The notes under the pieces: model-generated
The model's input: only the letters and a program-made list of their open reading frames with translations
Databases searched by the model: none
Told to the model about the DNA's origin: nothing
Translations under genes and position numbers: made by a program
NCBI RefSeq assembly: GCF_000424005.1
Contig: NZ_KE384121.1
Coordinates: forward strand, 84,182 to 148,181
Reading direction: 5' to 3'
DNA length: 64,000 nt
From: Pseudobutyrivibrio ruminis CF1b
GTDB lineage: Bacteria; Bacillota; Clostridia; Lachnospirales; Lachnospiraceae
Part shown: positions 4,859-44,382 of the stretch, one piece after another
Numbering within the stretch: the stretch's first letter is position 1
Layout: the number at the start of each line of letters is the position of its first letter

Positions 4859-6946
4859 TTAATTTACAGGGTATGTAAGTGCATGATTCTGTGAACCTGC
4901 GTAGCTTGAAGCCCATGACTTGGCGCTGCCAGCATCACGTGTGGCATAGCCATAGTTTGAACCTGGTCGCCAGTTTGTAGGACCAGCAATTCTAAGATTT
5001 GAAATGCTTCTTGAAAGAATACTTCCACTGTCAGTAAATCTTCCCTGGTAGTCCATATCATTTACAACTGCCCCCTTATGACTGCCTGCCTCGAAGCAGT
5101 TCTTCTCTGAATAAATGTTGCATTCAGTGTAAGGTGTATAACCCAAATCAAAGTCATATACATAGTTATTATAGCAGTGGAAATAACCGTAGCGCATAAG
5201 ACCAGGAGCTCTTGTGATTGTCTGCTTAAAGTAGTTGTTACAGATAGTCATACATGGATAACCACTGTAAGTATTTCTTCCATCCTCGTTTGGATAACCA
5301 AGGATGAGACCATATTTATGCCCCCCGAAGAAACAGCTTGTTACAGATACATAATTTGCCTTTAATCCAACGTAAAGGAATTTATCTGTATCGTTGTTGT
5401 GGATATATGTATCCTGATTCATGTTGTGGCCCGGCCATGAGCAATGATCAAGCCAGAAGTTATTGCCATCTGAAATGTACATCTGAATATCATCGTTGTT
5501 ATTGATGTTTACAGAATGTGAGAATGTAAGATTCTTGTATATATTATTTCCTGATGACTGTATGTTTCTAAAGTGAATATTGTTAAGTGTGTGGGCATTG
5601 TAAGAACCGATGAAAGTCTTATTTGAACCAACATTTACCTTTGTAAGTGAGTTCTGAGAAATATTAGAACCAATTACGATTGTATAAGGTGTAGAACCAG
5701 AAGCGTATCTTAAAAGATCACTTAAAGAGTTTACAGTTACTGTCTGTCCGAACACACCTCCAGTCACAGAAGCTTTTTCTCTGCCATTCATATCCTTTGA
5801 ATAGCCTGCAAAGCCTTCTACTCCGTAAGGAGCCACTCTGAAGCACTGGCTGGCAGAACCATTGAAATTGCCAAGCTTATAGGTATCGCCAGAAAGTGTA
5901 AGTGCAAGATTAGTATTGTTGTTATTTACAATTTTATAGTTCAGTGCATTTCCTGTGGCATCGTTCTTTGTTGCCACTATTTTCCAGCACTGTGAGCTAT
6001 CACCATTTGAAACAGCCGCATCTGCAACAGTAACGCCCTCTGAAACATTGCTGCCGTATGGAGTGAGGCAATAGCCTGTAGCTACGTTTACGATTCTATA
6101 TACGCCGTTATTCACATATGAAAGAATCCATCTGTTTGAATTATTGCTGTTGCTTTCGGATGTAAGAGCAGCGCCATTTGAACCATTATCATTTAAGAAT
6201 TTCCCGTCAGAACAGTTTACAAAGTTAATCTGCTGTTCAGGATAAACATTTCCAAGAGGTGATGTGGTTGGAGCAGGCTCATAGCTGCCGGCATTATTAT
6301 TTCCAGTGTTGCTGTCATTATTCCCAGTATTTCCATTATCTCCATTGTTACCGCTATTACCATTACCACCATTATTTGATGGCCATGGAGCCTGTTCAAA
6401 ATACCAGATTTCATTATCTTTTCCAGAGTACTTATACTCTATAATATTTGTTCCACTTGTTTTTCTGGCACCATAAACATTTAAAGCAGAAGCAAAATTT
6501 GATACTTCTGTGGCAATGTAATATCCCATACTGTTGTCCGCCTGACGAATTGAAAAATTCTGTGCAGCCTGACCGTTGTTGGAATAAATCTGTATGTTGG
6601 TACCATTGTCTGCTGAACCCCATGCTACGTCCAGTGACATTCCTCCTGTCATATCTGTAGCTGGGTGTAATCTGAAATTACCTGTTGAATCATTCTTTTC
6701 CAGAATCCAACGCTGACCAAGTGAGCCAGTTCCTGTGGACTGTACTACGTTAGCTGCGTTGTCTGCAGAGTCATTTTCTACTGTCAAGTAGAGTCCGCTT
6801 TTCTTGTTTTTGATGTAGTAGATGTTACCACTTTCAGGCGTTATAGCCTCCGCGTGAGCATCTAATACTGGTGCTGCGATGAGCGACAATACAGTGACAA
6901 GCACCATAGTAAAAACCGCCGCAAATCGTCTGAAGTTTTGCTTCAT
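4859..6946 (-). CDS. Secreted pectate lyase (PL1) with two ricin-type lectin modules
   Basis: 695 residues from the ATG at 6946, which has GGAGG nine bases upstream; the ATG at 6952 is too close to it. A signal peptide ends near residue 32 (LDAHA). Two ricin-B/CBM13-like domains follow at about 38-185 and 240-375, separated by an Asn/Gly-rich linker. The C-terminal 310 residues form a PL1 beta-helix lyase, with FWLDHCSWPG, repeated asparagine-ladder strands and TRAPGLMRYGYFH carrying the likely catalytic arginine. It should cleave polygalacturonate by beta-elimination outside the cell. It is monocistronic with its own terminator. Confidence 0.88.
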   Translation of the reverse strand: MKQNFRRFAAVFTMVLVTVLSLIAAPVLDAHAEAITPESGNIYYIKNKKSGLYLTVENDSADNAANVVQSTGTGSLGQRWILEKNDSTGNFRLHPATDMTGGMSLDVAWGSADNGTNIQIYSNNGQAAQNFSIRQADNSMGYYIATEVSNFASALNVYGARKTSGTNIIEYKYSGKDNEIWYFEQAPWPSNNGGNGNSGNNGDNGNTGNNDSNTGNNNAGSYEPAPTTSPLGNVYPEQQINFVNCSDGKFLNDNGSNGAALTSESNSNNSNRWILSYVNNGVYRIVNVATGYCLTPYGSNVSEGVTVADAAVSNGDSSQCWKIVATKNDATGNALNYKIVNNNNTNLALTLSGDTYKLGNFNGSASQCFRVAPYGVEGFAGYSKDMNGREKASVTGGVFGQTVTVNSLSDLLRYASGSTPYTIVIGSNISQNSLTKVNVGSNKTFIGSYNAHTLNNIHFRNIQSSGNNIYKNLTFSHSVNINNNDDIQMYISDGNNFWLDHCSWPGHNMNQDTYIHNNDTDKFLYVGLKANYVSVTSCFFGGHKYGLILGYPNEDGRNTYSGYPCMTICNNYFKQTITRAPGLMRYGYFHCYNNYVYDFDLGYTPYTECNIYSEKNCFEAGSHKGAVVNDMDYQGRFTDSGSILSRSISNLRIAGPTNWRPGSNYGYATRDAGSAKSWASSYAGSQNHALTYPVN

Positions 6947-8976: not shown

Positions 8977-9228
8977 ATGCCAGTTATATCAAGATTTAAT
9001 GGGATTGTGATTAGAATGTATTTTCTTTCAAGCGAGCACAATCCCCCTCATCTTCATGCTATTTATGGTGATGATGTAGCAGCTATAGATTTTCAGACTG
9101 ATGAAATTCTAGATGGATATTTACCACCTAAGACTATGGAATTAGTTCTACAGTGGATATCTCTTCACAGAGATGAATTACTACAAATATGGGAAACTCA
9201 AAATTTCATAAAAATTCCACCACTATAA
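8977..9228 (+). CDS. DUF4160 family small protein
   Basis: 83 residues from the ATG at 8977 (MPVISRFNGIVIRMYF), chosen because AAAGGAG lies seven to eight bases upstream and the family begins this way. The core EHNPPHLHAIYGD is the recognisable DUF4160 signature. It is followed 14 bases later by a DUF2442 gene, its usual partner; such pairs are predicted toxin-antitoxin-like modules, though the biochemistry is unknown to me. Regulation is not evident beyond a weak TTGACT box near 8893. Confidence 0.75.
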   Translation: MPVISRFNGIVIRMYFLSSEHNPPHLHAIYGDDVAAIDFQTDEILDGYLPPKTMELVLQWISLHRDELLQIWETQNFIKIPPL

Positions 9229-9242
9229 TACAGGAGGTAGTT

Positions 9243-9680
9243 ATGTTTCATAAAATAAAAGATGTACAACCCCTTCCAGACCACAAACTAAATGTTTATT
9301 TTTCTGAAGGTCAGCGAAAATTATATGATATCGTCCCTTTATCTTCTAAACACCCTCTATTCAAAGACTTGTTAACCGATGATGATTTGTTTAATTCTGT
9401 GCAAGTGGATGTAGGTGGTTTTGGAATAATATGGAATGATGACCTGGATTTATCATGTGATGAACTTTGGGAGCATGGTCAAAAGGTAGATTCTCCATTT
9501 GATGGGCTTATGTCCTTAAGAGATGCTACCGAAATGTGGGGACTGAATGAAAGTACCCTCAGACGAGCAATCATCTATGGTAGATTCTTGCTTGGAATTG
9601 ATGTCTGTAAATTTGGTAAGCAATGGGTCATTTCATATGAATCTATGCTTAGAGAATACGGAGAACCAAAAGCTAGCTAA
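9243..9680 (+). CDS. DUF2442 protein with C-terminal helix-turn-helix
   Basis: 145 residues from the ATG at 9243, behind an AGGAGG at 9233-9238. Residues 1-80 are a DUF2442 domain (FHKIKDVQPLPDHKLNVYFS, ending near DELWEHGQ). The remaining 60 residues form an excisionase/MerR-like HTH: MSLRDATEMWGLNESTLRRA, then a wing-like WVISYESMLREYG. The fusion suggests an antitoxin that binds DNA and the DUF4160 partner. The unusual phased site array beginning 228 bp downstream could be its target, which is speculation. It converges with the small membrane gene at 9686. Confidence 0.75.
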   Translation: MFHKIKDVQPLPDHKLNVYFSEGQRKLYDIVPLSSKHPLFKDLLTDDDLFNSVQVDVGGFGIIWNDDLDLSCDELWEHGQKVDSPFDGLMSLRDATEMWGLNESTLRRAIIYGRFLLGIDVCKFGKQWVISYESMLREYGEPKAS

Positions 9681-9685
9681 TAGTT

Positions 9686-9814
9686 CTAAAAAGGAGTCCT
9701 CAAAGACTTTAATATTACTAAACCAATCATCCCTAAATCTATTAATATAAACAATAAAATAGCAAATGCCTGATACCGCTTTTGTTTCTTTAGTTCTTCA
9801 GCTGTCTTTGTCAT
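9686..9814 (-). CDS. Small single-pass membrane protein (42 residues)
   Basis: Open frame beginning MTKTAEELKKQKRY and then a hydrophobic segment (AFAILLFILIDLGMIGLVIL) before a basic tail KSLRTPF. The charge pattern predicts one membrane helix. AAGGAG lies nine bases before the ATG at 9814. It ends six bases from the end of the DUF2442 gene on the other strand. The phased site array lies upstream of its start, so the array may control it. No family is recognised. It could be a toxin-like or stress microprotein. Confidence 0.6.
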   Translation of the reverse strand: MTKTAEELKKQKRYQAFAILLFILIDLGMIGLVILKSLRTPF

Positions 9815-9907: not shown

Positions 9908-10215
9908 TTACGGGTAACATACATTAATTTCTATCTTCACCCGTAATTGAAAAAACAATAAAATTCTACTTACGGGTAGGCCCATTGGCGCTGTTATGTA
10001 CCCGTAATTTTTCTTGATTTTACTGTTAAATCCCTTGTAATTGATCATTAACAAATTTAATTTACAGGCAGATTTTATAATTTTCTATTCCCACCCGTAA
10101 ACCCTCCTCTCTTCTACGGGTATAACACCTCCTTGAACTAGTCTCACCCGTAACCCCCAATATCCATACTCTGAATTTACGGGTTGAGCACAAATATATA
10201 GCAGGCCACCCGTAA
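9908..10215. repeat. Phased array of TTACGGGT / ACCCGTAA sites
   Basis: Exact TTACGGGT occurs at 9908, 9970 and 10177, and TACGGGT at 10115. Exact ACCCGTAA occurs at 9939, 10000, 10093, 10146 and 10208. Degenerate copies sit at 10032 (CCCTTGTAA) and 10062 (TTACAGGC). Most consecutive sites alternate in orientation and are 30-31 bp apart, close to three helical turns; the 10000-10115 part is irregular. Intervening sequences of about 23 bp are unrelated. No protein frame crosses the block. It fills most of the 540-bp gap between the small membrane gene and the BIG2 protein. Confidence 0.85.
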
Positions 10216-44182: not shown

Positions 44183-44260
44183 AGTTCATCCCTTAAACTA
44201 AAATACTCTGAGACTATAAAATAATCTCAGAGCAAATATGTTCCACAAATAAACTACCAT

Positions 44261-44366
44261 CTTCTTTCATCCAGACTATACTGTCGGCTTCGGAATCTCA
44301 CCGAATCATGCCTTGCGGCTCGTGGGCTATACCACCGGTAGGGAATCACACCCTGCCCTGAAGATA
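44261..44366 (-). promoter_or_regulatory. FMN riboswitch (RFN element)
   Basis: Minus-strand sequence shows the conserved blocks CTTCAGGGCAGGGTG, ATTCCCTACCGG, AGCCCACGAGC, GATTCGGTGAGATTCCG and GCCGACAG, then AGTCTGGATGAAAGAAG. FMN binding would stop transcription before ribD. Confidence 0.97.
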
Positions 44367-44382
44367 CTATTTAATTGAGTAA

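Follow-up and report, generated by a model that had tools for sequence, protein, structure and literature searches.

A phased array of inverted words in Pseudobutyrivibrio ruminis CF1b as a probable gene-less part of a nuclease–array system

Autoregulated DNA-binding proteins with phased operator arrays exist. In REPIN/RAYT systems, a nuclease-type gene, that of a REP-associated tyrosine transposase (RAYT, TnpA-REP), is tied to its own short palindromic words and to dispersed extragenic inverted doublets (PMC3116915, PMC8266576). Sets of the direct repeat TAACTGA in Beggiatoaceae represent another case, in which copies of one heptamer, many of them just upstream of genes, are unexplained and have no known partner gene (PMC4679880). 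No description of the nuclease–array system considered below was found among the open-licence papers listed.

The window, i.e., the whole 64-kb stretch of DNA that was analysed, has all its 8 exact copies of the words TTACGGGT and ACCCGTAA at positions 9908–10215, against 0.56 expected, and at most 3 such words were found in any of 100 shuffles of the window. The exact words, the near-matches and their alternating direction lie where an earlier, sequence-only reading of this DNA had placed them. The basic unit is an inverted pair, namely a word, 22–24 bp and the inverted word (TTACGGGT-N22..24-ACCCGTAA), and five pairs, three perfect and two degenerate, are located within 308 bp. The word CTACGGGT at 10114 is a near-match with one change, and the degenerate copies TTACAGGC (10062) and TCCCTTGTAA (10031) were identified by eye. 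The features of the array and the gene beside it are given below, one per line; here and elsewhere, L and G numbers denote the loci and genomes compared, and G000 is the genome of the window itself.

9908..9946, no strand assigned: unit 1, TTACGGGT-N23-ACCCGTAA
9970..10007, no strand assigned: unit 2, TTACGGGT-N22-ACCCGTAA
10062..10100, no strand assigned: unit 3 with degenerate left arm, TTACAGGC-N23-ACCCGTAA; found by eye, register matching the other units, right arm an exact word
10114..10153, no strand assigned: unit 4 with one change in the left arm, CTACGGGT-N24-ACCCGTAA
10177..10215, no strand assigned: unit 5, TTACGGGT-N23-ACCCGTAA
9908..10215, minus strand by analogy with the L021 leader array (step layout): the whole solo array
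9686..9814, minus strand: small ORF of 42 aa with a hydrophobic stretch (by eye), nearest downstream gene to the array in the minus sense

The units start at 9908, 9970, 10062, 10114 and 10177, which gives steps of 62, 92, 52 and 63 bp, or approximately 6, 9, 5 and 6 helical turns. The ladder of 30–31 bp proposed earlier was right as regards spacing by whole turns and wrong as a strict 31-bp ladder, as these steps show; other arrays step 31/22, 29/23, 33/20 and 28/25, with same-orientation steps close to whole turns. A promoter within the 9-turn gap of the array was also considered and dropped once a conserved promoter had been found upstream at other loci. The 42-aa ORF has no meaningful relative among the array and nuclease loci compared (best other match with E 0.62). 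At 8977–9680 of the window, a DUF4160 and DUF2442-HTH gene pair adjoins an ABC-F gene; our guess is that the pair is arranged like a toxin–antitoxin module. It was also found beside an ABC-F gene in G024, a part of DUF4160 is present in G018, and the pair was unmatched in the compared stretches of the remaining congeners. An FMN riboswitch (Rfam RF00050) occupies positions 44255–44369 on the minus strand.

In the whole genome (3.27 Mb), 15 perfect pairs of the TTACGGGT type were found and none of a control pattern. These pairs belong to five arrays: that of the window and those at about 160 kb (L018) and 571 kb (L019) of contig C1, 61 kb of C6 (L020) and 57 kb of C7 (L021). Unit steps in the latter four are 52, 62, 63, 72, 83, 94 and 156 bp, and L018 and L020 each contain one ATGCATCC pair, 41 and 62 bp, respectively, from the first TTACGGGT-type unit. 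Perfect TTACGGGT pairs were present in 5 of the 61 genomes searched, including the own genome (control pattern, 0). Pairs of the same geometry were detected among 29 genomes of the genus for ATGCATCC (18 genomes) and, among the matches listed, for TACTACCT (10 genomes), with no match of the control patterns; CTACGGT pairs were found in 4/29, where the control pattern matches once in 7/29, so chance matches occur. Among the matches listed, the TTACGGGT arrays of other Clostridia have spacers that are quite different. In Treponema (L114, L135 and L138), alternating TTACGGGT-type words were noticed in clusters, with no nuclease in the stretch examined. The two congeners represented by L019 (4951–5145) and L025 (1501–1539) are distinguished by a block of 156 bp (15 turns) located between copies of ACCCGTAA, which is, by eye, an in-phase gain or loss of a unit. 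A short ORF with a cysteine-rich end at 5332–5418 of L018, just upstream of sulphur-amino-acid genes, looks by eye like a cysteine leader peptide.

The array of L021 ends directly before the gene G000:C7:55946-56764, which is situated 37 kb from the window array on the same contig. The two arrays have nearly the same layout (steps 62-94-52-63 in L021 and 62-92-52-63 in the window), and because of this likeness the sense of the window array was taken, by analogy, as the minus strand. Identical bases were counted at 113 of 226 spacer positions, whereas 60 spacer shuffles gave 35% on average and 43% at most; BLAST aligned the window array with L021 at 68% identity over 134 bp (E 8e-5). Thus, the earlier statement that the spacers are unrelated applies inside the window array, where they look unrelated to one another, and does not apply to the comparison with L021. 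The word in the window array is that of the L021 nuclease, its layout is that of the L021 leader, and its spacers align with those of the leader better than chance would allow; as far as sequence comparison can tell, the window array is a loose relative of the leader array of its cognate nuclease, without that promoter or gene: the promoter TTGACA-N17-TATA[TGC]T is absent upstream of the window array, and no nuclease homologue was found anywhere in the 64-kb window. In our opinion, the window array is probably a solo, i.e., gene-less, DNA platform of a nuclease–array system.

The product of the L021 gene (261–273 aa) is a PD-(D/E)XK nuclease-like protein having homologues at other array loci and no Pfam or NCBIfam assignment. 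The PADLOC models PDC-S68 and HEAT_CxxC_PDDEXK match its C-terminal part (E 1.3e-28 and 6e-8), spanning only residues 149–271 and 160–271, so that the N-terminal half lies outside. A model of the protein was predicted with pLDDT 94, and a Foldseek search gave weak matches (best E 0.014), among them the PD-(D/E)XK enzymes Bax1, DrdV and MunI. In 41 chosen members (alignment A1), E158, P188-D189 and E204 are invariant and H follows E204; a K two places past E204 is not among the invariant features given for A1, and the protein is PD-(D/E)XK-like. A Pfam search with the same number of members (41, E 0.01) found no HuH (Y1-type) transposase, and three other families matched one member each, weakly. 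The N-terminal half is more variable, with a mean identity of 30% against 50% for the other half.

About nine such genes are present in the own genome. Among the matches listed, homologues were found in at least 41 of the 99 genomes searched (own genome included), and two genomes from another family within the order also contain them. Of 299 genomes drawn from across the phylum, 11 matched: four from the same family, including the own genome, nearly over the full length and seven in the C-terminal part. Distant relatives occur in Murdochiella and Levyella. Three short unannotated faecal phage records of a phage collection matched, one of them covering 87% of the protein, and nine records of a plasmid collection matched in the C-terminal part only.

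The regions upstream of 62 nuclease genes (60 chosen among the matches listed, together with L021 and L024) were searched for over-represented inverted 6-mers without regard to spacing (p<0.01, 200 shuffles each). A significant inverted-word family was found in 44/62 of them against 0/89 control regions, and 18/62 did not reach p<0.01. In the own genome, six of the eight examined upstream regions were significant, with six different words. The words are 6–9 bp long, differ between paralogues of one genome and include TTACGGGT, CTACGGT, ATGCATCC, TACGTG, TACAGT, TACTTG, TACGTC, TTACTACC, TACTATC, TATGGG and GCACGC. G000 carries ATGCATCC pairs, and none of its eight examined nuclease upstream regions has ATGCATCC. 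In three held-out genera, four of nine nuclease genes (L324, L339, L325 and L326) have a significant word family and five do not; two of the nine genes, L325 and L341, also show a strong word family further downstream. A scan of DNA by pattern only, with 115 loci listed and a nuclease homologue sought within a stretch of at most 8 kb per locus, found the homologue in 9/46 loci with four or more clustered half-sites against 1/69 with fewer. In the search of relatives proposed in the sequence-only reading, this kind of array recurs, and the recurrent adjoining gene encodes the PD-(D/E)XK nuclease-like protein. Sequence comparison establishes that many members of this multi-copy family have a phased inverted-word array beside the gene.

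Proteins of higher identity have more similar words (Mantel r 0.33, p 0.0002; 49 proteins, 1176 pairs), and the correlation holds in pairs with less than 50% identity (p 0.003). For the same 49 proteins, the partial correlation is 0.29 (p 0.0005) for the N-terminal half with the other half held constant and 0.00 (p 0.48) for the nuclease half treated likewise. These 49 of the 62 loci leave out the broken or short genes L215, L222, L224 and L239 (by reading), loci with fewer than six called sites and the weak array calls L209, L218, L243 and L260. The best reading is that the N-terminal domain would recognise the word as duplex DNA and that protomers would assemble on one face of the helix.

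The promoter TTGACA-N17-TATA[TGC]T was found upstream of the gene in 26/62 loci, and the same pattern occurs twice in the whole 64-kb window on both strands. The first called word follows it at 82–164 bp in 18 loci and at 236–513 bp in six, and two have no called word. With this promoter upstream, the leader array would lie within the transcript. The suggestion that the array is always upstream of the gene was overturned by arrays located downstream. Judging from coordinates, the array is upstream in four of ten pattern-found nuclease loci (L060, L067, L099 and L110), downstream in five (L115, L141, L143, L144 and L151) and about 3 kb off in L055. Among 31 loci with both sides of the gene examined, three of which are C-terminal matches only, 17 are significant upstream and four downstream. 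The leader position is therefore not general, the array outside the genus being often downstream of the gene, and these downstream arrays are unexplained by a pure operator model. A leader motif, which ends in CATTTCGCC and has a GGC..GCC hairpin, was noticed upstream of 7/62 nuclease genes (L021, L024, L211, L212, L214, L217 and L226).

Alleles of the same loci were compared between species. When G000 and G008 are aligned at the L021 locus, they have 92% identity in the flank on the array side, to a point 28 bp short of the array; similarity is then lost over the array, and on the far side it resumes only about 3 kb past the gene. The nucleases of this locus are 66% identical in DNA and 54% in protein, and their words differ. 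At one chromosomal locus, the same promoter, TTGACA-N17-TATATT, is present in the TTACGGGT leader and in the ATGCATCC leader. At a second locus, with flanks of 93–95% identity, the nuclease gene has 76% DNA identity and the same word, and the array is not alignable. We infer that array and gene change together, either by allelic replacement or by fast divergence.

The 162 distances between same-orientation neighbours (55 of the 62 loci with a seed word, each distance taken once per array) fit best to a period of 10.50 bp (R 0.74; of 2000 null values, the highest was 0.27). After removal of the three commonest distance classes, 61 distances still give 10.55 bp and R 0.58. In 18 chosen solo loci, a period of 10.45 bp was obtained (R 0.85, n=60; largest null value 0.43); this set omits L364, L369, L374, L375, L376, L026 and others, and a single element is represented among the 18 by several copies. 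The AT content is highest in the middle of the unit (0.85–0.91), with a further peak near ±9 bp, as would be expected if the minor groove faced a bound protein there. The association, the phase, the covariation of word and domain and the leader position in many loci of the genus are thus established at the level of sequence.

A mechanism may be proposed for the nuclease–array system. The family-specific N-terminal half would read one word per protomer in duplex DNA, and two protomers would be opposed across an AT-rich centre that spans about three turns. Cooperative assembly along one face of the helix would then cover the array. Where a leader array stands downstream of a sigma-70-type promoter, the complex would block transcription and keep the nuclease low. 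Solo arrays, some of them within MITE-like elements, may serve the same protein as sinks or as substrates. For the nuclease, putative activities that may be deduced from these comparisons are binding, autoregulation, cutting and mobilisation.

According to another, rather doubtful explanation, the arrays are REPIN-like mobile DNA, the nuclease being a domesticated transposition enzyme and the array pairs the substrate that it moves. Solo arrays occur for other words too, no nuclease homologue was found in any of the 18 chosen solo loci, and no common neighbour gene was seen at solo loci. For two words, solo arrays do carry the word of resident nucleases, which speaks for the nuclease–array system proposed above and also for mobility. 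All three genomes with solo CTACGGT units are among the 5/29 with an examined CTACGG nuclease (p 0.003), and an examined TTACTA[CT] nuclease is present in 6/9 genomes with solo TTACTACC units and in 2/20 without them (p 0.004; the set omits G003); with exact TTACTACC and nuclease-linked units included, the link is weaker (3, 7, 0, 19; p 0.03). For TTACGGGT, no significant link between solo units and an examined cognate nuclease was found over 29 genomes (1, 3, 1, 24; p 0.26). In all these tests, words were assigned only for examined nucleases among the matches listed, and cognates may be missing.

Mobility is also favoured by a TTACTACC array element of G022, copies of which (L364, L365, L366, L375, L376 and, in G000, L369) are 92–97% identical over 112–215 bp, two more having 79–80% identity; against this, L364, L366, L375 and L376 lie at contig ends, and the number of separate places is uncertain. 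MITE-like flanks are common to L018, L023, L027, L029, L036 and L167, and the L018 element is missing at the same place in G028, with the 8-bp ACTAAGGA at both of its ends in G000. However, an ordinary transposase could move such MITE-like parts around arrays, the arrays of the window, L021 and L024 have no match to these flanks, and the two nuclease loci compared across species stay in place. The MITE-like stretch at 1350–1965 of L027 has, by eye, the inverted-repeat flanks TTTCAACCTGCT and AGCAGGTTGAAA, hairpins on both sides and an array with two words inside.

It is quite improbable that the arrays work as RNA, i.e., that a transcript forms consecutive hairpins (stems of 8 bp, loops of 23 nt) and in this form binds, regulates or guides the nuclease. 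The promoter found upstream in 26 loci would put a leader array into the transcript, and for the arrays of the window and of L021, none of 100 shuffles folds as well (z −4.0 and −4.4); favourable folding energy is, at the same time, a general property of inverted repeats. The conserved promoter is absent at the 10 solo loci examined. When 8-nt arms were compared, edge positions included, the change was confined to one arm in 130 of 190 units whose spacers are distinct, and compensated arm positions number 22 against 17.4 expected, a value reached in 21 of 300 permutations. The hairpins suggested earlier are disfavoured, as arm changes are not clearly compensated and the 10.5-bp quantisation of unit steps is without evident meaning for hairpins joined by single strands; one-sided changes and helical phase together favour duplex DNA. 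Rfam 15 gave no match in the array regions of the window (gathering score) or of eight array loci (E up to 1), and a known RNA family was rejected. A CRISPR-like array was likewise rejected, as before, since the words alternate in direction and have about 8 bp and spacers recur within the array in L051 and L088.

It is very improbable that an unrelated regulator, e.g., the DUF2442-HTH or a nucleoid protein, binds the array and that the nuclease is merely a regulated or neighbouring gene: the window array is intergenic and close to DUF2442-HTH, but tblastn over 419 loci found this gene only at the window locus and in G024 (L304), where the following 594 bp have no array, and the choice of word tracks the N-terminal half of the nuclease. 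Of the regulator platform suggested in the sequence-only reading, the DNA platform on one face is strongly supported by the 10.5-bp phasing elsewhere (162 and 60 distances), and DUF2442-HTH as its binder is given up.

Returning to the nuclease–array system, it connects many paralogues of a multi-copy nuclease family, hitherto undescribed and found in rumen and gut bacteria, with a matching DNA word. Paired words and paralogues make the DNA-reading code of the N-terminal domain workable by comparison, natural word-swapped alleles are available at one chromosomal place, and this may be a case of repeat dispersal without the HuH enzymes of REPINs. A broader and tentative idea is that of a genome-resident system of a new kind, in which hypervariable nucleases, each with its own word owing to a fast-changing N-terminal domain, might assemble on phased arrays beside their own genes, and non-autonomous elements might collect arrays, sometimes with several words, to exploit these nucleases. 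If this is true, the switching of words at one chromosomal locus would represent an arms race comparable to that of PRDM9 or of zinc-finger repressors.

Summarizing the comparison with known systems, the PADLOC candidate defence entries PDC-S68 and HEAT_CxxC_PDDEXK have a related C-terminal nuclease domain and differ in that the matches are without the N-terminal half. The Beggiatoaceae TAACTGA sets are similar as sets of short-word repeats, many of them just upstream of genes, whereas the present words are inverted and in helical phase, and a nuclease family is linked to them. Autoregulated operator arrays share with the arrays described here sites in the gene's own upstream region that lie on one face of the helix and suit cooperative binding; in contrast to them, the protein here carries a nuclease domain that looks intact, its many paralogues have different words, and arrays are found loose elsewhere and in some cases downstream of the gene. 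With REPIN/RAYT, the system has in common an enzyme gene linked to cognate words, dispersed extragenic inverted doublets and covariation of enzyme and word. Doublets cognate to a linked enzyme gene are indeed dispersed here, although the genome-level link for TTACGGGT is not significant. Differences from REPIN/RAYT are a PD-(D/E)XK-like rather than HuH protein, words of 6–9 bp about three turns apart in multi-unit arrays with a 10.5-bp phase, a low number of copies per genome in the cases examined and hairpin pairing that is not clearly supported. On the basis of these sources, REPIN/RAYT is the nearest system in logic, with a different class of enzyme.
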